In this document: positions 5,901 to 24,560 of the stretch, in pieces
How positions within the stretch are numbered: position 1 is the first letter of the stretch
Layout of the letters: each line of letters opens with the position of its first letter
Source: a virus
DNA: 30,313 bases
Direction: 5' to 3' (one strand)
IMG/VR virus record: IMGVR_UViG_3300022227_000020
Span: 1 to 30,313 of that record
Notes under the pieces: model-generated
Told to the model about the DNA's origin: nothing
The model's database searches: none
What the model saw: only the letters and a program-made list of their open reading frames with translations
Position numbers and translations under genes: made by a program

Positions 5901-8900
5901 CCATTGTTTACCTAAATGTCCTCCAGTAACAGCTGGATCAAATAGGCCACCTGCTTTTTCACTTAAATCCTTTCCTCGTAACATTTGGCCGGCGTCTTTA
6001 ATCTCGCCTGAAGATAATTTTAGGACTCCTTTATCAGTTAGCGGCAGTAAATACATTTTATTCCCGTCCTTTTTCACATCCACACCGGCGCCCCGAAGAT
6101 AATTAGTCATTTTTTCAAAAACAAAATTACGATTTGGACGTACGGGAGGGAGGCCAAGCTGTAATCGCCTTCAATATTCGTCATTTTGTCGGCCTTTAAG
6201 AGCCGTCATTTCATACAAATTCTTTTTAGCCCCATGTGCTAATAAAGAATAAGTCAACATTGGGTCAACTTTCTGCGCACCTTTTCCTGTAGGTTGTTCA
6301 TTAATATCATAAGAGCCTAAACCATGAGCAGCTTGTTTTTTCTTAACCGTATGACGTAATTTTAAAAAATATTGATTGCCTACATAGACGGGCTGATCAA
6401 AGGGCTTACCGGACGCTCCATTCGTTAAAATTTCATTTGCAGGTATCTGCAGTTTTTTTAATTGTGCTGCCACTTCATTAGCGGTATCAGTGCTGGCAAA
6501 GTTTTCGACAAAGTATGGCTTGCCTGTTTTCTTTGCAATCTTACCAGCAGCGGTTTCAAGAATTTGCCCAATATTCATACGGCCGGGCACGCCATGAGGA
6601 TTAAGCATAATATCAATAGTAGACCCATCCTCACGATGAGGTGCATCACTATCTGGTATAATTTTTGTCACAATATTTTTATTGCCATATCGTCCAGCTA
6701 ATTTATCTCCTTCTTTAAATGGGTGGGTAGATTTTAAATAAATATCAACATTTCGCCCTGTTTTAACAAGATCAATAACCTCTCCAGCCTCATCTTCATC
6801 TCATTCAACTATCTTTTTTACGTAGTTATTAAATATAGCTTTGTTTAGGCGACGTAAAACTTTATCTGTATCAGACAAGTCACGCTCTTCTAAATAAGCA
6901 GCTACTAATTCCCCAGGATAAAATATCTCACCTATCTTAGGTAAGCCTTCCGCGTTTAATTTAGCTCTATTTTCAGCTGTCATAACCCCAGGGAAATAGG
7001 CGCGAAATTTAGTTAAATTAAAAACTGCTGTTTTTGGACTGAAGAATATATTTTTTCGGGAAATGAGTTCATGCGATAGCTTTTGGGCAGCACCTTCCGT
7101 AATGACAGCTCCATCCTCAAAGTTATAACCTTTTCACGGCATATAGGCGACAGTCAGATTTTTCCCTATAGCTAGAGTATTACCCACACTATAGTTTGTT
7201 TCGGCTAAAGGAGTGTTATGCGTTATTTTATCGCCCGCTTTGACTAAAGCTTTGGAATGTAGAAAGCCGTCTTGATTTAAAGGGAAGTTATTGTAAAGAC
7301 CCTTTTTAATTGTTTTCCCGTCTTGATCACGCCTAATATAGATGTAATCATCAGACACTCTAGTTACTTTACCAGAGGCATTTCTAGTTGTTGTGCCCTT
7401 AGTCACTTGCCCTAGCACTGGATTTAAATAGCCACCAACTACGTCTTCTCAAATTACATTACGTTTAGCGTCTTTTACTTGAACTAAGGGCGCCTCCTTA
7501 TTTGTCAAAGACATGGCCTGACTAATCATACGGGCTGCCGTTGAGGCTCTATTACCTTGAGTAGACTGGATAAAAGGTACTAAATTAGTCGCAATTGAGA
7601 AAAGATCTTGTGAACTATAAATATAAGCATCCACTTTAGATGCAGGCACAGACATAACTTTGCCACGGTATTGAACATTTACAGCTCGAGGCGAGGTTGC
7701 TACTACTTTACCATTTTTAACTATATACTCATCAGGAAAGCCAATGTAATGGCTGTGAAGCTTTATTGGTGATCAATATTCTTTTCGCCCAGCCTTAGTC
7801 ATAACTGGAGCTAACAAATCTTGACCTTGTTTTTTTACACCTACAGCCATACCAACTGTAACACCAACCCTACCACCTTCAGGAGTGGAGAGTGGGTCAA
7901 GTATTCCTAAATGTGATGGCTGCACATCACGGGTATCTAAAGTAATTGCGTGCGGGGTTTGAATACCGCCCAGACCCATAGGACTTGTTTTTTGCCAATC
8001 AGTCAATATTGTAACAGGATTTGTTTGCGGAGGAGTAGCAGCAAGTGAGCTAACTGTAAAAAATTCTTTTATAGGTTTACCAAACGTACCAGAGGAAACA
8101 ATCTCTCGAACTCTTTCTTTTGTGCGTAAGCGACGTTCTAACTTTTTAGTAACAACCTCTGTTTGAGCCTTAAATTGCGCAACAAGTAAGTCATCAATGC
8201 CGTATAAATCTTTAAAAATTAAACTGTCACGATCATCCGGTTTAGCCTCTCCACGAGTAATCTTCAATAATTTTATTGAAGCTGCAAGTAAAGTTTTTCC
8301 ATCAACTCTGTTATATTTTTGACCCAGTGTTAATTGCGTGGTTGCGGGGTCTACCTCTGTATAATTGTTAAAATACTCTTTAAGCCCCTCAGTTACAATG
8401 GCAAAGTCTGTTTCGTCTTTACGGTACACTTTTTTATAAATAGATGTCATTTCAGAAACTTCAGTGTTTAAAGCGCCTTTTTTATTTAATTCATAAAGTT
8501 CATCTCCTCACGCTTTACGTACACTTTCTTCAGAGATTTCTAATAGATTTAATAAAGTTCAGAGCCTATATTTTCTATTATTAAACACCACATAAAATAA
8601 CTGCTTTTGAGGATCGAGTTGCATGTCAAAATTAAAGCCTTTAGATAGATTAAATTCATTTTCTAAATCCCCATTATTTTTTATTCGTGCATAAATACCT
8701 GATTTTCGCCGAATCTGATTTGTAGTCTGATATTCATTTCCATCTACAATGGTAGTAAAACGATTTGTAAGTTTTGGAATAGCTCCAATTTTAATTTTAG
8801 CGGACTTATCAATTACACGATTAGTTTTCGTATCAACAATTTTTACATTTGCAAAAATGGGAACTTGCCACGTCTTTCGATTTAATTTAAATGACTTTTG

Positions 8901-13175: not shown

Positions 13176-14090
13176 ATGGCAATAAGTTTATATTCAATGA
13201 TCGGTGAAACAGAGGAGTCTATTGACACATTAATAGAAGACATAGATAATTTATATTTATCGTACCCTATTAAAAAGCGAAATGGAAAGTTTCGTTGGAT
13301 AGACGCTCCTCTATCTCCTCTCATCGAGGTACAAAGTAAAATACTGTATAAAATTTTATACAAATTTAAACAGCATAAATGCTGTGTAGGATTTACAAAA
13401 AATAAAAGTGTACGCGATGGAGCGAATATACACTTAGGATCAAAAGTTTTACTAACGATGGATTTAGAAAACTTTTTTAACAATATTAAAACACCAGCTG
13501 TCTATTCAGTTCTCGATCATCTAGCATACAAGTTGAGATTAAATAGCAAATCTAAAAAGGACCGTATTGAGACAGGTGAGCTACAGAAAATAGCTAGAAT
13601 TATGACGTTTAAAAATCAGGTTCCTCAAGGTGCACCTACATCGCCAGCCATTGCAAATTTAGTTGCCTATAAGCTGGACATGGCACTAGAGAAGTTAGCA
13701 GATGCGGAGGGCTGTACGTATACGAGATATGCAGATGATTTAGCCCTTTCAAAGACAGATAAAAATTTTAACATTGGAAGTCTGATTACGCAAGTCAAGA
13801 GTATCATCATAGATCACGGCTTTGCATTAAATTATAAAAAAACTAAAATAAGACGTCCCCATAACCGCATGACAGTTACAGGGGTAGTCATTAATGATAA
13901 ACTCACAGTTCCAAGATGGAAATGGCGAAATTTTCGTGCGCAGTTACACAATTTAAAAACGGCAAATAGCCCTATTTCACTGGAACAATATCAACAACTT
14001 AGAGGATATGCTGAATGGATAAGAAGCCTTCACCCAATAAGAGGTCAGCAGTTCATAACAGAACTTGGAAAGATTCCGTTAGTGACCTAA
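13176..14090 (+). CDS. Retron-type reverse transcriptase
   Basis: 304 residues. Motifs in order: MDLENFFNNI (RT2-3 region), VPQGAPTSPAIANL (about 149-162), TRYADDLALS with the catalytic YADD at 185-188, and VTGVVIND (retron-type RT7). The C-terminal segment ends with a conserved LRGYAEWIRS-like stretch. QGAPTSP and VTG distinguish it from DGR reverse transcriptases. It would copy part of its upstream RNA into msDNA. An AGGAG site precedes the ATG. A second gene overlaps its 3' end by 76 nt and may be the retron partner. Trp codons are TGG and the stop is TAA. Confidence 0.88.
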   Translation: MAISLYSMIGETEESIDTLIEDIDNLYLSYPIKKRNGKFRWIDAPLSPLIEVQSKILYKILYKFKQHKCCVGFTKNKSVRDGANIHLGSKVLLTMDLENFFNNIKTPAVYSVLDHLAYKLRLNSKSKKDRIETGELQKIARIMTFKNQVPQGAPTSPAIANLVAYKLDMALEKLADAEGCTYTRYADDLALSKTDKNFNIGSLITQVKSIIIDHGFALNYKKTKIRRPHNRMTVTGVVINDKLTVPRWKWRNFRAQLHNLKTANSPISLEQYQQLRGYAEWIRSLHPIRGQQFITELGKIPLVT

Positions 14091-14578
14091 TAGAGTTACG
14101 GCAACGCTTTTCAAATTTAGAAATGGCGAGTATAGTTTTGCCTTACGGATTTGATACTTTTGAATCCTCTCGTAGCCCTCAAAAATTTAAACCATTTGGA
14201 AATTTCAATTTGCTTATAGAGGATTATTTAAATATAACTAAACCCAAAGACAGTTCTTTGGATCCTACTATATACCCAATGGTTTTTAGTGTAGGGCAAT
14301 ACCCAAATACTAGACGGCCTTATCGACGTTTAATACAGGTTTTCCCTGCACAAATTACGGACTCCTTTTATAAAAGACGCCCAGGATATTATTATAAAAT
14401 AAATAAAATCACCGGCAACAAAAAGGAGATTTTTATTTCTAAAACTCTGATAACTGGCAACCTCACAGAAATTGAAAAACAAGCAGGAAAATTAATACAG
14501 GAATGTAATAGATTTTTCTTCCTGAATTGTGAAAATATAGAACCAGTAACTAACCAACGGCACAGGATGCCATTTTAA
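14015..14578 (+). CDS. Unknown protein overlapping the RT gene, candidate retron partner
   Basis: 187 residues if started at ATG 14015, which has AGAGG 8 nt upstream inside the RT gene. A later start at 14123 (MASIVLPYGFDTF) is also possible and would remove the 76-nt overlap. The body is mixed alpha/beta, with YPMVFSVGQYPNTRRPYRRL and PGYYYKINKITGNKKEIF segments, and ends at TAA. No toxin or nuclease motif is recognised. Tight coupling to the RT suggests a shared function, but that is inference. Confidence 0.6.
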   Translation: MDKKPSPNKRSAVHNRTWKDSVSDLIELRQRFSNLEMASIVLPYGFDTFESSRSPQKFKPFGNFNLLIEDYLNITKPKDSSLDPTIYPMVFSVGQYPNTRRPYRRLIQVFPAQITDSFYKRRPGYYYKINKITGNKKEIFISKTLITGNLTEIEKQAGKLIQECNRFFFLNCENIEPVTNQRHRMPF

Positions 14579-14710: not shown

Positions 14711-14917
14711 ATGCACTTCCGAGTTAGTCTAACAGTAGGAAAAAAGGGAAGTCAATCACGAGTTCTACATGTGCGTGCTAATGACATAATGGACGCGATG
14801 ACCATCGGCAAGAAAATACGCGGTGGCCGTATCAACCATATAGAATCTATTTCATATGAAGACTATATGAAAGGTGTACACGCAAAATACGAACTTCCAG
14901 TTTGGAAACAAAAATAG
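14711..14917 (+). CDS. Small basic protein, unknown
   Basis: 68 residues, starting MHFRVSLTVGKKG, predicted alpha/beta with many Lys and Arg. AAGGAG lies 5 nt upstream. It ends at TAG, 5 nt before the next ATG, in an apparent operon with the radical-SAM-type gene. No family is recognised. Confidence 0.55.
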   Translation: MHFRVSLTVGKKGSQSRVLHVRANDIMDAMTIGKKIRGGRINHIESISYEDYMKGVHAKYELPVWKQK

Positions 14918-14921
14918 ATAA

Positions 14922-15686
14922 ATGAAACTGGAAGCTTTTACTGAGAACTCAAAAACCTTACTATCAATCGATTTTGATCGCTTTACCACATGCCCACAAA
15001 TTTGTGAATATTGCTATGTTGGTAATCTTGAACGACTTTACCCAGCTTACAAAGCTAAAATAAAGAAAAACGACAACCGATCAAAAGACAACCCGACAAT
15101 GTTCGCCCAACAATTAAACAGCGAATATAGGAAACTCAGAAAAAGCAAAAGTAAAAAATATACAAAATTAGACAAATTACCCGTCAGAGTATATGGATCA
15201 GGAGATTTTATACCCGACCACTTATTATGGTTAAACCAATTGGAATTTAAATTCTATCTTATCTCAAAATCTCTTACAAATCTAGGGTATCACAAATATA
15301 TAAAACAATTATTAGAGATACCAAATCTGACAAAGATTATACTTTCTTTAGATGATCAAAATTTAATGAATTATGATCTTATAAAACACTTTAAAGGTGC
15401 AGACCGCTTTGGTCTAGCCTATACCGGTATGGCAGATGATTATAATCATCATGTAGCAACAGGAAAACTGTCCGCTACAATCTTCTTTAATATATCAAAC
15501 AAACATACCGAAAAAGCAAAATCACGTTTGATTAAAGAACAATGCCCTTGTGATTCCGGAGTTCTAAAACTCGCTAAAAGTTGTTCATTCTGCAATAAGT
15601 GCTGGAGAAGCACTAAAACCAAAGGCCAACAATGGAATACTTTGATGACAGACGACCACGTGGCTTCGCAAGTTATCTCGAATTAG
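14922..15686 (+). CDS. Gp88-like radical-SAM-type iron-sulfur protein
   Basis: 254 residues. The N-terminal motif CPQICEYC gives Cys24, Cys28 and Cys31 in a CX3CX2C pattern, the 4Fe-4S site of radical SAM enzymes. It is followed by ERLYPAYKAKIKKN. RVYGSGDF (about 88-95) matches the SGDF element of the phage Gp88 family as I remember it. The C-terminus has a second Cys cluster (CPC...CSFCNKC, about 207-229), possibly an auxiliary cluster. The substrate is unknown. Family assignment rests on these motifs only. TGG is used for Trp and the stop is TAG. Confidence 0.65.
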   Translation: MKLEAFTENSKTLLSIDFDRFTTCPQICEYCYVGNLERLYPAYKAKIKKNDNRSKDNPTMFAQQLNSEYRKLRKSKSKKYTKLDKLPVRVYGSGDFIPDHLLWLNQLEFKFYLISKSLTNLGYHKYIKQLLEIPNLTKIILSLDDQNLMNYDLIKHFKGADRFGLAYTGMADDYNHHVATGKLSATIFFNISNKHTEKAKSRLIKEQCPCDSGVLKLAKSCSFCNKCWRSTKTKGQQWNTLMTDDHVASQVISN

Positions 15687-15886: not shown

Positions 15887-15905
15887 CCCTAACGCTACGT
15901 TAGGG
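15887..15905 (+). repeat. Copy 1 of a repeated hairpin
   Basis: An 8-bp stem with loop CTA. It matches a second hairpin at 16386-16404 with loop TTA. The loop-side core AACG-YTA-CGTT is the same in both. The outer pairs differ but still pair (C-G versus T-G and T-A), i.e. compensatory change. The copies are 499 bp apart. Confidence 0.6.
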
Positions 15906-15950
15906 TAAAAGACTCGCTGGGACGAAATCGTCCCAGAATGTTAAGCCTCA

Positions 15951-16310
15951 GGGCCCACAGGCCCTTAGCTGCAGCGTCAAGATCCAGCAGGTCCCGCCAA
16001 CCAGGGGACAGCTGGCCCGGACCCGATCGCGCGCTTCCCCCGGATCATGATATCCGCGGGACCGCTTCCACCGTCGCCGGCGCCAGAACTTTACATGCAC
16101 GTGCTCCGCCTTCACCGGACGGCAGCTCGAGTACCGTTTCAGGCTGGTCCGAACAAAAGCTTAGCGGATCCAAAGGTGTCGACTTCGCTCGACGGGCTTC
16201 CGACGCAGCCGCACTAGTCACCTGGCCATGGTCCCACTGTATGATCAGGGAGACTGGGCACCGCCCAACCGGTTAACTTCGAAGTAAGAAGAGACAGGAT
16301 AGCATGCTTA
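15951..16310. other. Dense, non-redundant cluster of 6-bp palindromes
   Basis: By hand I count 24 different 6-bp palindromes in 360 bp: GGGCCC, CTGCAG, CAGCTG, CGATCG, CGCGCG, GCGCGC, TCATGA, GATATC, CCGCGG, GCCGGC, GGCGCC, CACGTG, CTCGAG, AAGCTT, GGATCC, GTCGAC, ACTAGT, TGGCCA, CCATGG, TGATCA, ACCGGT, GTTAAC, TTCGAA and GCATGC. About 6 are expected by chance and none repeats. Several extend to 8 bp, and one to 10 bp (16276-16285). The flanking 300 bp to the right shows only background density. The function is unknown. Confidence 0.75.
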
Positions 16311-16385
16311 ACGAGTATGAGTTAGTACCACGCACATTACATAGCTTATAGACTGACACCTCTTAAAATGTGTCAAACAGTCTAA

Positions 16386-16404
16386 CTTTAACGTTACGTT
16401 AAGG
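16386..16404 (+). repeat. Copy 2 of a repeated hairpin
   Basis: An 8-bp stem with loop TTA, the partner of the hairpin at 15887-15905. It retains pairing despite changed outer bases. A further small stem follows (CGGA/TCCG at about 16419-16433). Confidence 0.6.
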
Positions 16405-16606
16405 TCTAGGAATATTCGACGGAGAAACAATCCGCCGACGCAAGATCTGGAGGCGCTCATCCTTCCGGGTTTTAGATGCCGACGCATTATGGATGCCCCC
16501 CATTCCAGAATACGCCGTCATACGAAAAACACCGAAAGGCAGGACGCCATCCAGACTTGGTCGGCCCGAGCCAGACCAGGCGCTCCGCGCAGTATGTAAT
16601 TTAGAA

Positions 16607-16657
16607 TTAATAGGACGTACTTAATTGTGCGTCCTATTAAGCTGATGTATTTTTTTT
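16607..16657 (+). terminator. Strong hairpin plus T-run at the end of the ncRNA island
   Basis: An 11-bp perfect stem (16607-16617 with 16630-16640), extended by three more pairs, has loop TTAATT. An 8- to 9-base T-run follows (16650-16657), with 8 nt between stem and T-run. That gap is longer than in a textbook intrinsic terminator, but this is the best candidate in the region. Confidence 0.6.
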
Positions 16658-16737: not shown

Positions 16738-18096
16738 ATGACAACACAAAAACCTAAACTTTTAGTTTGGTGTGATTTTTTAGTCCCAACGGGCTTCGGC
16801 AATGTTGCCAAAAATTTATTAGATACCCTGCATGAAGATTATGAGGTATACGTGCTGGGTATTAATTATCGTGGGGAGACTCTATATGATACCGATAAAT
16901 ATTTTGTTTTCCCAGTTGATAGCCAGGATTTATTAGGGCTTCAAAAACTACCTCGAATTATCCACCAAATTAAACCTGATCTTTTATTTTTGTTTCAAGA
17001 TGTTTTTCACATCTCAGACACTATAGAAGCTATTAGAAAACAAGTTGGATTTAAAACGAAAATTGTTAGTTATTTTCCAATAGATGGTGCTCCATTTAAT
17101 TTAGGCTGGCAAAATGTTTTGGATTATTCAGACGCTGTTATTACTTATACAGATTGGGCCATCTCAGTTATTAAAGATAGATTCCCTACCTATAACCAAA
17201 CTCCTATACATAAATTATATCATGGAGTCGATACCAGTGTATTTTACGCGAAGTCGGCAACGGAAATCACGGCAATAAGGAAAAATTTAGGTTGGACAGG
17301 TAAATTTACAGTGGTTAATGTAAATCGTTTCCAACCTCGTAAATTTATTCCGGCTACAGCGAGAGCTTTTAACATGTTTGCAAAAGGCTATAAATTAAAT
17401 CCTGAAAATGGCCATATGATGCCATTAGATCGGAATCGATGTGAATTAAGTGGCTCTACGGATTTAGAGACTCACGAACGAGGCTTGGAGGATGTATTTT
17501 TATATCTACATATGAATGCAAAAGAACCTATAATGGGACCGGGACGTGCAAATGTTCTACAAGCTCACTTATTAAATTCAAACTACAATGATCGAGATGT
17601 TAATAAATTAGTAGGTTTGAATGCTAGAAATGTATATAGTGGCGAGATCTCAGAATCGTTTATTAATGATCTATATAATGGAGGCAATGTTAATATCAGC
17701 TCGACTATTGGAGAAGGCTGTGGCCTAAGTTTAATTGAATCAGCTGCCGCAGGGACCCCAAGTATAGCACCCAATAATAGTGCGATTCCTGAAATGTTGA
17801 AAGCTACAGGACATAAAGTTAAAAATTCAACGGTGTTTAATATGGCGCTTGATAACGGGCATTGGAGGCCTATAGTTGATTGTGGGGATATGGTGCGGGC
17901 CTTAGATATAGAATATAAAAAATGGAAGCAGACCGGTGTTGACAAAGACGTTAATTTAGAGTGTGTTAAGCATATAAAGGAATGTTATTTATGGCCCGAT
18001 AAAGTTAGTTTGCTAAAATCTATTTTTACTGATGTTGCGTCTCAGGTTATGACTGATACAGTGCAGCAGCCAAAAATAACTACTGCTATTCAATAA
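16738..18096 (+). CDS. GT4-type glycosyltransferase (GT-B fold)
   Basis: 452 residues. The N-terminal Rossmann half starts KPKLLVWCDFLVPTGFGNVAKNLL, with the usual Gly-rich loop. The linker has HGVD, followed by NVNRFQPRKF. The C-terminal half has EGCGLSLIESAAAGTP (about 326-341), the E-x7-E region that binds the sugar-nucleotide in GT4 enzymes. The likely role is modification of phage or host glycans or DNA; the acceptor is unknown. All Trp are TGG and the stop TAA directly abuts the TAG of the convergent minus gene, with no terminator between them. Confidence 0.85.
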   Translation: MTTQKPKLLVWCDFLVPTGFGNVAKNLLDTLHEDYEVYVLGINYRGETLYDTDKYFVFPVDSQDLLGLQKLPRIIHQIKPDLLFLFQDVFHISDTIEAIRKQVGFKTKIVSYFPIDGAPFNLGWQNVLDYSDAVITYTDWAISVIKDRFPTYNQTPIHKLYHGVDTSVFYAKSATEITAIRKNLGWTGKFTVVNVNRFQPRKFIPATARAFNMFAKGYKLNPENGHMMPLDRNRCELSGSTDLETHERGLEDVFLYLHMNAKEPIMGPGRANVLQAHLLNSNYNDRDVNKLVGLNARNVYSGEISESFINDLYNGGNVNISSTIGEGCGLSLIESAAAGTPSIAPNNSAIPEMLKATGHKVKNSTVFNMALDNGHWRPIVDCGDMVRALDIEYKKWKQTGVDKDVNLECVKHIKECYLWPDKVSLLKSIFTDVASQVMTDTVQQPKITTAIQ

Positions 18097-18445: not shown

Positions 18446-20319
18446 TATACGTTCCCCTTTGTTGGTCCTTTTTGTTTCGTATCAGGACTTTGTTCTGTTT
18501 TCGTACTAGCGGAGTTGTCGGGCGCCATAGCTCCTGGGGCACCCATCTCTTCTTCCATCCTTAGCTCGGCTTCTAGAGATGCCGATTGTAATTGTGCTAA
18601 GCGGCTTTGAATTAAGGTAGCAGTCGTAGGCATTTTTTGTGCCAAAGCTTGTAAATACTTTAAGGCTTCAGGCTCCTCCATCATTGAAATTTCTAAAGCA
18701 TATTTTTCAATAATTTTATACGGTTCCTCAGGAATTGCCTGAAGTTCAACACTTAATTCATCCTGGAACATTTCAGTTTGTAATCTAAGCTGTTCTAATT
18801 CCATAGCTTTTTGAGCACGTACTTGATATGTACCACCTATAACGGTGGCCTCGCCTTGCGCCGTTGCTTGCGCTTGGTTATCTTCTATTAGTTGTGCACG
18901 CTGAAATTTTAAACTATCTTTTATAGCTTTCATTTCTTTGTCATGATTGTAGCCCAAGTCTTCTAACAATCGTTCGTTCGATAGTTTTCCACTTTGATTT
19001 AAATTTAGCAATAATTGTTTTGCTTGAACATCATCAGCCATCTTAAATGTCTTAAAACGTAATGGTACATTTGGATAATTGAGATATTGAGAGATTTTAT
19101 TTACAACAAAATAGTTTAAAAAGTCACTTAATAACTCTCTATAATTTAAAAAATGATTCTCGACAATTCTTAAACTTACGCTTCCACTAGTAAAAGTTGA
19201 TCCCCCTTTGATAAATTCTAAAGGTACACCCATAGAATTAATAATCTCCTCTTCAAGAAATTTCATTTCGGGCGTCAACATTAGAGCTCGAGCATTACCA
19301 CCTAATTCTTGATAGCCTATGGGGATAGGAAAGACACCTATATGATTTGGATCAGTCCGTCATTTTTTTATTTGTTCCTCAATTTTAGCCTTTCATTTTC
19401 CTAAGTTCATTTGTGTATAAGGATCTAGAGTAGTTGTATTTGCAGGGTAAATACTTTTTTTCGGAACAATATGCTCATTAGCAATTGCCTCTTGCCCTCG
19501 TTGCAATGTTTGTAAATAATATAAAATTTTTAGTGCGGGTAAAATTATAGGTTTTCCCCATCCCATATCATCTTCTGCAAGGGTCGGCCGTTTAAAATGA
19601 TAAAAATTATCTGCGTCAATAACAATTCGTTTGTTCTTACGTAACGATTCTAAAAAAACCACCGGAATCGTATTTAAAATATGCCTATTTCCTTTTAAGA
19701 TTTTTGCCTTTAGTGCTGCTGGCATTACATAATAATATTCACTAGTGTTTGTTATAGGATTAAAATCTATATCAATATGTTCTGGTGACCATCGGACGAA
19801 CTTGAGATTTCTAATACTTTTTACATGGTCGTCTTCAACACTAAAGGTGATACCACCTGCTAGACACTTCGGACAATTACCAAAAAATTGAAACTTCTTT
19901 AGTTTATATTGGACATTATCAATCGGCATAGACTCTTCGCATGAGGGACATTTTAAATAACGTTTAGTTGTAATTTGTAATGAAATAAACGCATTACCAT
20001 ATGTATAATAATCTAAACCAATTTCAATTAGAAGTGACTTAATTTTAATATGATTATTAAGTAATGAGAGTCATTTTTCACGTACTTCTAAGTCAATTTC
20101 CGGGCCCACTAAAACTTCTGTGATAGGATACTCTGTTAATTTAGTAATAACATTACGGATAAATGCATTAGTATAAAAAAATGTTCGGCAATAAGAAAAT
20201 AAGGTTTTTATATTTTTTGGAATATAATTTTTTGCTAGATCAAAAAAAGGATTAGGGTATTTTCTTCCTGAAAAAGGCCCATCCAGCATCTCTGTATCAG
20301 TGTAGTGTTTAATCGGCAT
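18445..20319 (-). CDS. Portal protein
   Basis: 624 residues when TGA codons at 20071, 19393 and near 19361 are read as Trp; three separate open pieces lie in one frame. The fold signals are a portal-like N-terminal half, a central long helical region (MKFLEEEIINSMGVPLEFI) and a helical C-terminus with a Gln/Glu-rich tail. A CxxC-x21-CxxC zinc ribbon sits near residues 124-152 (KCPSC...NCPKC), as in some phage portals. As the head vertex ring it would dock terminase and tail. Neighbours are also structural-type genes. Assigned from the overall pattern rather than a diagnostic motif. Confidence 0.75.
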
Positions 20320-21198: not shown

Positions 21199-22221
21199 TT
21201 ACTCCTCTTCTAATAAAGCGTCTGCAAAACAGCCTCTAGCAACTGCGGTTAAGGGCTCATCAACTTGACGAATCTCACTTATATTTATAGGAAATTCTTG
21301 TTTAGTAAATTGGTCATTAAAAATATCAATAAATCCAGGCATCATAGAGGTCCCTCCTCCAACTACAATTGGTACAGGATTGGGGAAATTAGGCATATCT
21401 GAAGATTCTGTAAATTGTTTTGCAATGTTCGCTAACAAGTATCTAATCAGTACTCCATAATAAGTTTTAATAGCCTGCTCTTCACGTGTTAATACAGGAG
21501 CCTCTTTAATACCAGCCTTACCGCTTTTTATAACAACTTGAGCTGTTTGGTCAATTCCAGACGACATATGCTCTTTAATATACTGAGCTTTCGCCGGTGT
21601 TATAGCACAGTCTCGGGCTGCATTTTCATCAACAAAGTCACCTCCACGTGCTACACTAAAATTTAAAGCGGACATACCTGCATACATAATACATATATTA
21701 CACATTCCCGCACCCATCGAAATAGCAATTCCAGTTAGATTATCATCCGTTAATCCTGCAAAAGCTAATGCCTCCGCTTCATTTAAAGCTCTGGCTGTAT
21801 AACCTAAGGACTCAATTAATTGTTTTAGTACGTCTTCATGATAATCTACAAAGTGTTCATTATCAATAGGTTTGCCTGGTACACAGTACACCACTAACTC
21901 ATCTGGATTTGTAGGCTCCCCAAGGATATCCTTTATAATTAACCGCAATACTGGTAGCGCATCTTGTTCTTTAGGATTCAATAATCCTGCTGACATAGGA
22001 CGACGTAACTCCGCATTCCCAAATATTTGTGCATATTCATATGCATGTCGGCCAACTACATGTACACAATTATTTATCTCTACAAATGGAATTTGTAACC
22101 TTTGTAAAGATTTTTTAGTTGTTGGATTCTTTTCTATAGTTAAAAAGGCGTTACGTTGAAGTTTAATATTGTCTTTTGTAGCTGCAACGTAATTACCTGT
22201 TCCGCAATCCAAACCTTTCAT
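21199..22221 (-). CDS. Actin-like ATPase (ParM/Alp-type fold)
   Basis: 340 residues. Phosphate-1 loop: LDCGTGNYVAA near the N-terminus. Phosphate-2 region: ISMGAGMCNICIM (about 170-182). Adenosine motif: PIVVGGGTSMMPGF (about 286-299). The order and spacing fit the actin/Hsp70/MreB fold, and the length fits ParM-like proteins. It may build filaments for DNA or capsid positioning, but this is inference. It contains no Trp codon. AGAGG precedes the ATG. Confidence 0.75.
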   Translation of the reverse strand: MKGLDCGTGNYVAATKDNIKLQRNAFLTIEKNPTTKKSLQRLQIPFVEINNCVHVVGRHAYEYAQIFGNAELRRPMSAGLLNPKEQDALPVLRLIIKDILGEPTNPDELVVYCVPGKPIDNEHFVDYHEDVLKQLIESLGYTARALNEAEALAFAGLTDDNLTGIAISMGAGMCNICIMYAGMSALNFSVARGGDFVDENAARDCAITPAKAQYIKEHMSSGIDQTAQVVIKSGKAGIKEAPVLTREEQAIKTYYGVLIRYLLANIAKQFTESSDMPNFPNPVPIVVGGGTSMMPGFIDIFNDQFTKQEFPINISEIRQVDEPLTAVARGCFADALLEEE

Positions 22222-24276: not shown

Positions 24277-24560
24277 GAGGTATTTTGCAGGGGCGGAAGG
24301 AGTCGAACCCTCGGGCAGGACTTTGGACGCCCCGCATGGTTTTGAAGACCATCCCCGGAAACCGTAGCCGGGTCCACGCCCCTATAGGTAGTTAAATATT
24401 TAGTAGCAGCAGTATAGGCCTCCTGCTCCGAAGTAAAAGTTTCATCCAGTATAATTACTCGTTGCTGTTCATAATTATTAATTTGTACTGAGTACCTATT
24501 AGTATCATATACTGGATCAATATAAGCGTCTGGAACAGTGAATTTCTCCATAATATTCAT
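24270..24560 (-). CDS. Small protein whose 3' half runs through the tRNA gene, unknown
   Basis: 96 residues if started at the ATG overlapping the previous TAA (TAATG). The first 56 or so residues look like a real protein (VPDAYIDPVYDTNRYSVQINNY). The remainder is translated from the tRNA. It ends TGA-TAA, so it stops under either code, and the TGA overlaps the endolysin ATG. The tRNA may have been inserted into, or grown out of, the 3' part of an older gene. Confidence 0.5.
24288..24383 (-). tRNA. tRNA with anticodon UCA, tRNA-Sec-like long variable arm
   Basis: 96 nt including discriminator G73; CCA is not encoded. The acceptor stem is 7 bp (24377-24383 with 24289-24295). The D stem CCCGG/CCGGG has loop CTACGGTTT. 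The anticodon stem ATGGT/ACCAT encloses the loop CTTCAAA, so the anticodon is TCA. The variable arm is long, with a 5-bp stem (GGGCG/TGCCC), and the T arm GAGGG-TTCGACT-CCTTC is intact. The anticodon loop and long arm match tRNA-Sec (E. coli selC also has CUUCAAA). An 8-bp acceptor is not clear and the D loop is longer than usual for bacterial tRNA-Sec. It would read UGA. Charging with Ser/Sec is expected from the shape, yet the genes require Trp. Confidence 0.8.

Follow-up and report, generated by a model that had tools for sequence, protein, structure and literature searches.

The stretch of DNA analysed here, hereafter the window, is the complete IMG/VR virus record IMGVR_UViG_3300022227_000020 (30,313 bases), and its gene content is that of a large phage (RNA polymerase beta-like, volactin, MoxR, vWA and portal genes). 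Within it, an 880-bp non-coding interval lies between a GP88-family gene with a small follower open reading frame (ORF) on one side and a glycosyltransferase gene on the other. This interval contains a dense array of restriction-type palindromes, and a gene for a retron-type reverse transcriptase (RT) is located 1.9 kb upstream of the array on the same strand. An earlier note, made from the letters alone, had pointed out the array and offered decoy binding of restriction enzymes, RNA kissing, protein binding or vector contamination as possible explanations. Of these, the decoy idea survived and was strengthened, vector contamination was refuted and the other two were disfavoured; the nearby RT had been overlooked.

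Restriction-site arrays in the window and in related phages

Exact counting gave 24 six-bp palindromes at positions 15951-16310, all 24 different, in agreement with the earlier note. As had also been remarked, some belong to longer palindromes, seven reaching 8 bp and one 10 bp, but this number of 8-bp extensions is what chance would give. The expectation of about six palindromes per 360 bp was likewise borne out: 360-bp windows across the whole contig averaged 6.5 (sd 3.0), with no more than 15 in any unrelated window. For dinucleotide-preserving shuffles of the 360 bp, a comparison named beforehand as one that could refute the observation, the mean was 6.05 (sd 2.4, maximum 17), and none of 20,000 shuffles reached 24. 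When 24 palindromes were drawn at local composition, all 24 were different in 63 of 200,000 draws. The array also contains 39 four-bp palindromes, 24 of which extend to 6 bp, and the excess of four-bp palindromes exists solely as cores of the six-bp ones. The stretch is GC-rich and non-coding, as had been described, with 62% GC against 38% for the contig and a base composition that differs sharply from the flanks. Its one longer ORF (15938-16276) had no family match in Pfam and PADLOC searches, and no reading frame at the array position is common to relatives. An enzyme is listed in Biopython's copy of REBASE for 23 of the 24 palindromes, the exception being CGCGCG, which overlaps GCGCGC. Elsewhere in the window the 24 sites occur 115 further times, against 114.9 expected.

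Viral contigs were searched for relatives both with single proteins (glycosyltransferase, GP88, RT) and with protein alignments; a scan with the single RT sequence returned no relatives, but alignment-based scans did. Gene order in the loci found, referred to below by L numbers, is near-constant (MoxR, vWA, RT, ORF187, ORF68, GP88, glycosyltransferase, portal), and equivalent arrays occur at this locus in at least 18 divergent lineages. No alignment of the arrays with one another is possible: similar function-like content is conserved without common sequence. A whole-locus scan for six-bp palindromes per 360 bp gave 35 for L037, 28 for L110 (all different), 25 for L003, 24 for L105, 23 for L032, L103 and L009, 22 for L034 and L112, and 20 for L033 and L036; L182 (22) and L145 (21) came from the last contig scan. 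Enrichment in L007 is modest, and an array-like stretch in L015 is not significant for six-bp palindromes. About 60 more distant retron loci lack arrays (z no higher than 4.0 in the whole-locus scan). Just upstream of the array in L145 lies a tandem repeat of about 28 bp with CCTAGG (8024-8135), and the array-like stretch of L015 contains, at 8618-8660, GGATTCGAACCCCC, a sequence similar to an antisense tRNA T-arm.

Most phages have the array between GP88 and the glycosyltransferase. In L036, L037, L110, L139 and L182 it stands upstream of the RT, between the vWA gene and the RT, and no locus was seen with arrays at both operon ends. The RT is present at the locus in every relative with a long enough neighbourhood. 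In the RT tree, a single clade (support 100/97) contains 17 of the 18 array-bearing RTs; the RT of L182 lies far outside this main clade, yet an array is found directly upstream of it. Among isolated phages, the portal had matches in Salmonella phage Arash and in Vibrio phages (about 31% identity), and none of those phage records was among the RT matches.

Array DNA had no match beyond short chance ones among plasmids and phages. As many as five metagenomes yielded the same array, in copies that are 100% identical, so polymorphism within arrays, which had been tried as evidence, was uninformative. Contamination or misassembly is excluded for practical purposes by the presence of different arrays at one locus in independent contigs together with identical copies in several metagenomes.

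Match of the arrays to Type II specificities

For 17 pooled arrays, whose borders were set by eye around dense stretches with the result that per-array counts and z values are inflated, 392 six-bp palindromes were counted against 118.7 in shuffles (z 25.7). Extension of these palindromes to 8 bp was seen in 26% of cases (25% expected), and this chance-level extension points to selection on exactly six bases. Sites tend not to be repeated within an array (388 distinct against 344 in simulation, where the maximum of 2,000 runs was 366), and across the arrays together all 64 six-bp palindromes are used, most often CTGCAG, TTCGAA, GGCGCC, GCATGC and GGATCC.

Known specificities were taken from Biopython's subset of REBASE, which is a biased list. 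When compared within GC classes, the eight palindromes that lack a listed enzyme occur less often in arrays than expected (permutation p 0.0009); CGCGCG, for example, was seen once where 12.6 were expected. In the flanking genome, enzyme-less palindromes are at expectation (1004 versus 1039) and those with an enzyme are slightly depleted (2620 versus 2864). Interrupted palindromes were then assessed with the six-bp palindromes held fixed and the spacers shuffled. Forms with a known enzyme were enriched 1.71-fold (162 versus 94.9) and forms without one 1.14-fold (1367 versus 1198; binomial 2.4e-6 for the difference), as compared with 1.18-fold and 1.13-fold, respectively, in coding control stretches. 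Examples of the former are CCTNAGG (13 versus 2.0), GCTNAGC (8 versus 2.4) and GACN5GTC (7 versus 1.3), and L030, which is poor in six-bp palindromes, contains 11 known interrupted sites against 4.6. The known versus enzyme-less contrasts and the whole-locus scan are independent of the borders drawn by eye.

The arrays prefer the recognition sequences of real Type II enzymes over matched palindromes that lack an enzyme. Hairpins, kissing loops and generic protein sites predict no preference for known enzymes, so restriction recognition is favoured. Enrichment of Type IIS and other asymmetric sites, seen against spacer shuffles, was lost against dinucleotide shuffles in the arrays tested and is therefore not claimed. 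In the first five arrays, site use showed no clear trend with the number of isoschizomers in the Biopython list. In ten array-bearing phage records (73-210 kb), no member of three major families of DNA methyltransferase was found, and self-methylation by those families is thus not evident.

The putative non-coding RNA and the neighbouring genes

Features of the window around the array
Feature	Position	Strand	Remarks
Retron-type RT	13176..14090	+	YADD, VTG, GANIH instead of NAXXH; Pfam RVT_1 5.7e-22; PADLOC retron RT_XIII 9.3e-77
ORF187	14015..14578	+	Overlaps 3' end of RT gene; conserved with RT; no family; structure model weakly like YbjN and secretion-chaperone folds
ORF68	14711..14917	+	Small conserved RT-operon protein; weak fold resemblance to RNA-polymerase epsilon (YkzG) and T7 Gp2
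GP88-family protein (PF17338)	14922..15686	+	N-terminal CxxxCxxC-like motif
Small ORF, 73 aa	15632..15853	+	Immediately 5' of array
Hairpin CCCTAACG-CTA-CGTTAGGG	15887..15905	+	5' part of putative non-coding RNA; 5' parts fold much better than shuffles (window z -4.9)
Hairpin CTGGGACG-AAAT-CGTCCCAG	15917..15936	+	5' part of putative non-coding RNA
Restriction-site array	15946..16310	+	24 different 6-bp palindromes, CCTNAGG (15946), GCTNAGC (16159) and three RGGNCCY
Hairpin CTTTAACG-TTA-CGTTAAGG	16386..16404	+	Start of folded 3' module (to about 16600)
14-bp hairpin and nearby T-run	16607..16657	+	Terminator-like 3' end of putative non-coding RNA
Glycosyltransferase	16738..18096	+	Immediately 3' of array; synteny anchor

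From its sequence features, the interval that holds the array looks like an RNA gene. Across loci the 5' part folds much better than shuffles (z -2.0 to -8.9) and the array itself folds mostly like them (z 0 to -3), for which reason the idea of the array as a structured hairpin template was rejected. Many loci have a terminator-like hairpin before the next gene, and comparable terminators precede the glycosyltransferase in relatives. A folded 5' part and an unstructured body adjoining a retron-type RT suggest a binding module and a template in a putative non-coding RNA (ncRNA). No shared promoter motif was found before the ncRNA; TATATTAAAG-like motifs occur mainly before the glycosyltransferase. 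Long terminal complementarity was seen in L112 and L110 only. At 16380-16610 of the window, 3' of the array, lies a second GC-rich, well-folded module, which has no excess of restriction sites.

The RT carries a retron RT family match, the YxDD motif and VTG in region Y; the motif definitions (NAXXH, VTG) are those of PMC6868368. NAXXH of region X is kept in L036, L037, L110, L121 and L125, with GAxxH in its place in the window and L003 and HAEAH in L035; the asparagine of NAXXH likewise differs in two of 16 validated retrons (PMC6868368). For the ORF187, ORF68 and GP88 proteins no PADLOC family match was obtained, and the folds of ORF187 and ORF68 were matched too weakly for a function to be assigned. 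No toxin, nuclease or NTPase signature was seen in the three by Pfam, PADLOC and structure comparison.

Several genes of these loci are interrupted. In L003 (7998-10334), L112, L113 and L120, an insertion of roughly 1 kb divides the glycosyltransferase gene, and that of L003 carries an intein splicing domain (PF14890). Inserts that may be introns or inteins also interrupt vWA genes (L031, 4089-5120; L032, 4376-5316) and the RT of L112 (3459-3763). Elsewhere in the window, a volactin-family actin homologue (PF25216, 9e-71) is encoded at 21199-22221 (-). The portal gene at 18448-20319 (-) has three in-frame TGA codons, two of which align to Trp in L007, and a tRNA with anticodon UCA, called as tRNA-Sec, lies at 24287-24383 (-). 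Together, the codons and the tRNA suggest that some genes of this phage use TGA as a sense codon, perhaps for Trp.

A proposed restriction decoy and its rivals

We consider it probable that multi-copy cDNA, made from the array by the RT, acts in trans as a decoy for Type II restriction enzymes. Under this proposal, a naturally selected library of Type II sites, with about one copy per specificity, would be the body of an ncRNA gene that belongs with a retron-type RT in a family of large phages. The RT would bind the folded part of the RNA and, in the manner of retrons, produce multi-copy cDNA from the site array. During phage genome replication this cDNA, either as an RNA-DNA hybrid or after second-strand synthesis, would supply dozens of unmethylated sites in trans and tie up the host's Type II enzyme, whichever it is, together with its methyltransferase. 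A lone genomic copy would be insufficient as a decoy, since the same sites occur elsewhere in the genome at the expected number; reverse transcription into many copies would solve this problem. We infer transcription and reverse transcription of the array, a duplex product and an anti-restriction effect. The decoy idea of the earlier note survives in this form, strengthened by the contrasts between known and enzyme-less sites. Whether it extends to large phages mass-producing cDNA that carries nearly every common Type II site once, as a broad-spectrum anti-restriction decoy, appears to us evenly balanced.

A number of observations weigh against the proposal. Besides the inflation of per-array values by borders set by eye, the ncRNA is not adjacent to the RT in most relatives, with three or four genes in between, and no a1/a2 inverted repeat is common to the 18 loci (combined Fisher p 0.16). 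Six main-clade RTs (L015, L035, L121, L125, L132 and L137) have no significant 6-bp array, and in L009 the otherwise diverse array repeats CCCGGG six times at 8809-8870, mostly 11 bp apart. Retron products are single-stranded and Type II enzymes generally need duplex DNA, so a decoy would require an extra step.

The same components could instead form a sensor or guard, in which RT-made array DNA is a tripwire and its cutting or methylation by a host enzyme releases a partner (ORF187, GP88) that responds. Retrons act as guards, and conserved partner genes overlap and follow the RT. The partners, ORF68 included, lack any signature of an effector among those searched for, however, and blocking restriction would benefit a lytic phage more than sensing it; we regard this, the main rival, as a minor possibility. 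It is also unlikely that the array acts directly as genomic DNA with no reverse transcription involved, for example by being sacrificed or by catching methylation. Such a role would fit with duplex array DNA being present only in the genome and with the genes that separate array from RT in most relatives. One copy cannot titrate an enzyme, though, when 115 further copies of the sites exist in the window, and linkage to the RT in two gene orders and in L182 would be left unexplained.

A cassette of recognition sites for the phage's own methyltransferase, integrase, packaging or homing enzyme would account for a locus that is fixed in related phages, but not for arrays that have no common sequence and between them use all 64 palindromes; with none of the three methyltransferase families found in the ten records, this is very improbable. 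RNA-RNA kissing, dimerisation or cruciform formation is more improbable still: all sites are self-complementary and probably transcribed, but pairing would favour more than 6 bp and predicts neither the preference for known-enzyme palindromes nor the enrichment of known interrupted sites. Generic protein binding, also raised in the earlier note, is disfavoured likewise, as enrichment stops at 6 bp and follows known restriction specificities. Finally, despite its polylinker-like look and a composition so unlike the flanks, the array has no vector match and has natural relatives, with no fewer than 18 distinct arrays found at this locus across unrelated contigs, which together with the identical copies in several metagenomes refutes a cloning-vector polylinker, synthetic DNA or assembly chimera and leaves it a negligible probability.

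In comparison with known systems, the element shares with retrons the RT family (Pfam RVT_1 and PADLOC retron models), YADD and VTG, as well as a candidate ncRNA in which a folded part is followed by a candidate template, upstream of the RT in L036, L037, L110 and L182. It differs in that the array usually lies downstream of a multi-gene operon, contains tens of distinct restriction sites and is carried by large phages, and in that no effector was recognised here. As a1/a2 repeats were not found in common, the element was not filed as a retron although it has a retron-type RT. Defence-associated reverse transcriptases (DRTs) are bacterial anti-phage systems. Those with ncRNA templates likewise combine an RT and a non-coding template RNA in phage-bacterium conflict, but the array system is phage-borne and its best RT models are those of retrons. 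Restriction-site avoidance is another answer to the same selection; the arrays, in contrast, concentrate sites in one place, with enzyme palindromes slightly depleted elsewhere. The proposed outcome, occupied host restriction enzymes and a spared phage genome, is that of the antirestriction DNA-mimic proteins T7 Ocr, Tn916 ArdA and T4 Arn (PMC12707154). Those are proteins, whereas the array, which is non-coding and so is not an acidic B-DNA-mimic protein, would be a nucleic acid covering many specificities. The word 'decoy' is absent from that 2025 antirestriction review (PMC12707154), and no description of retron decoys or restriction-site arrays was found in the open PubMed Central literature. 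The arrays are a natural library of restriction sites tied to a phage RT and conserved by content rather than by sequence, for which no described counterpart was found.

If the proposal is correct, the arrays would represent a new phage route past restriction-modification, in which one nucleic-acid decoy serves against many specificities as an alternative to protein inhibitors or DNA modification. A programmable array could also serve as a tool. Phage-borne retron RTs would gain a role in counter-defence, and the arrays, in which enzyme-less palindromes are under-used, would be a natural record of the restriction specificities met by each phage lineage.
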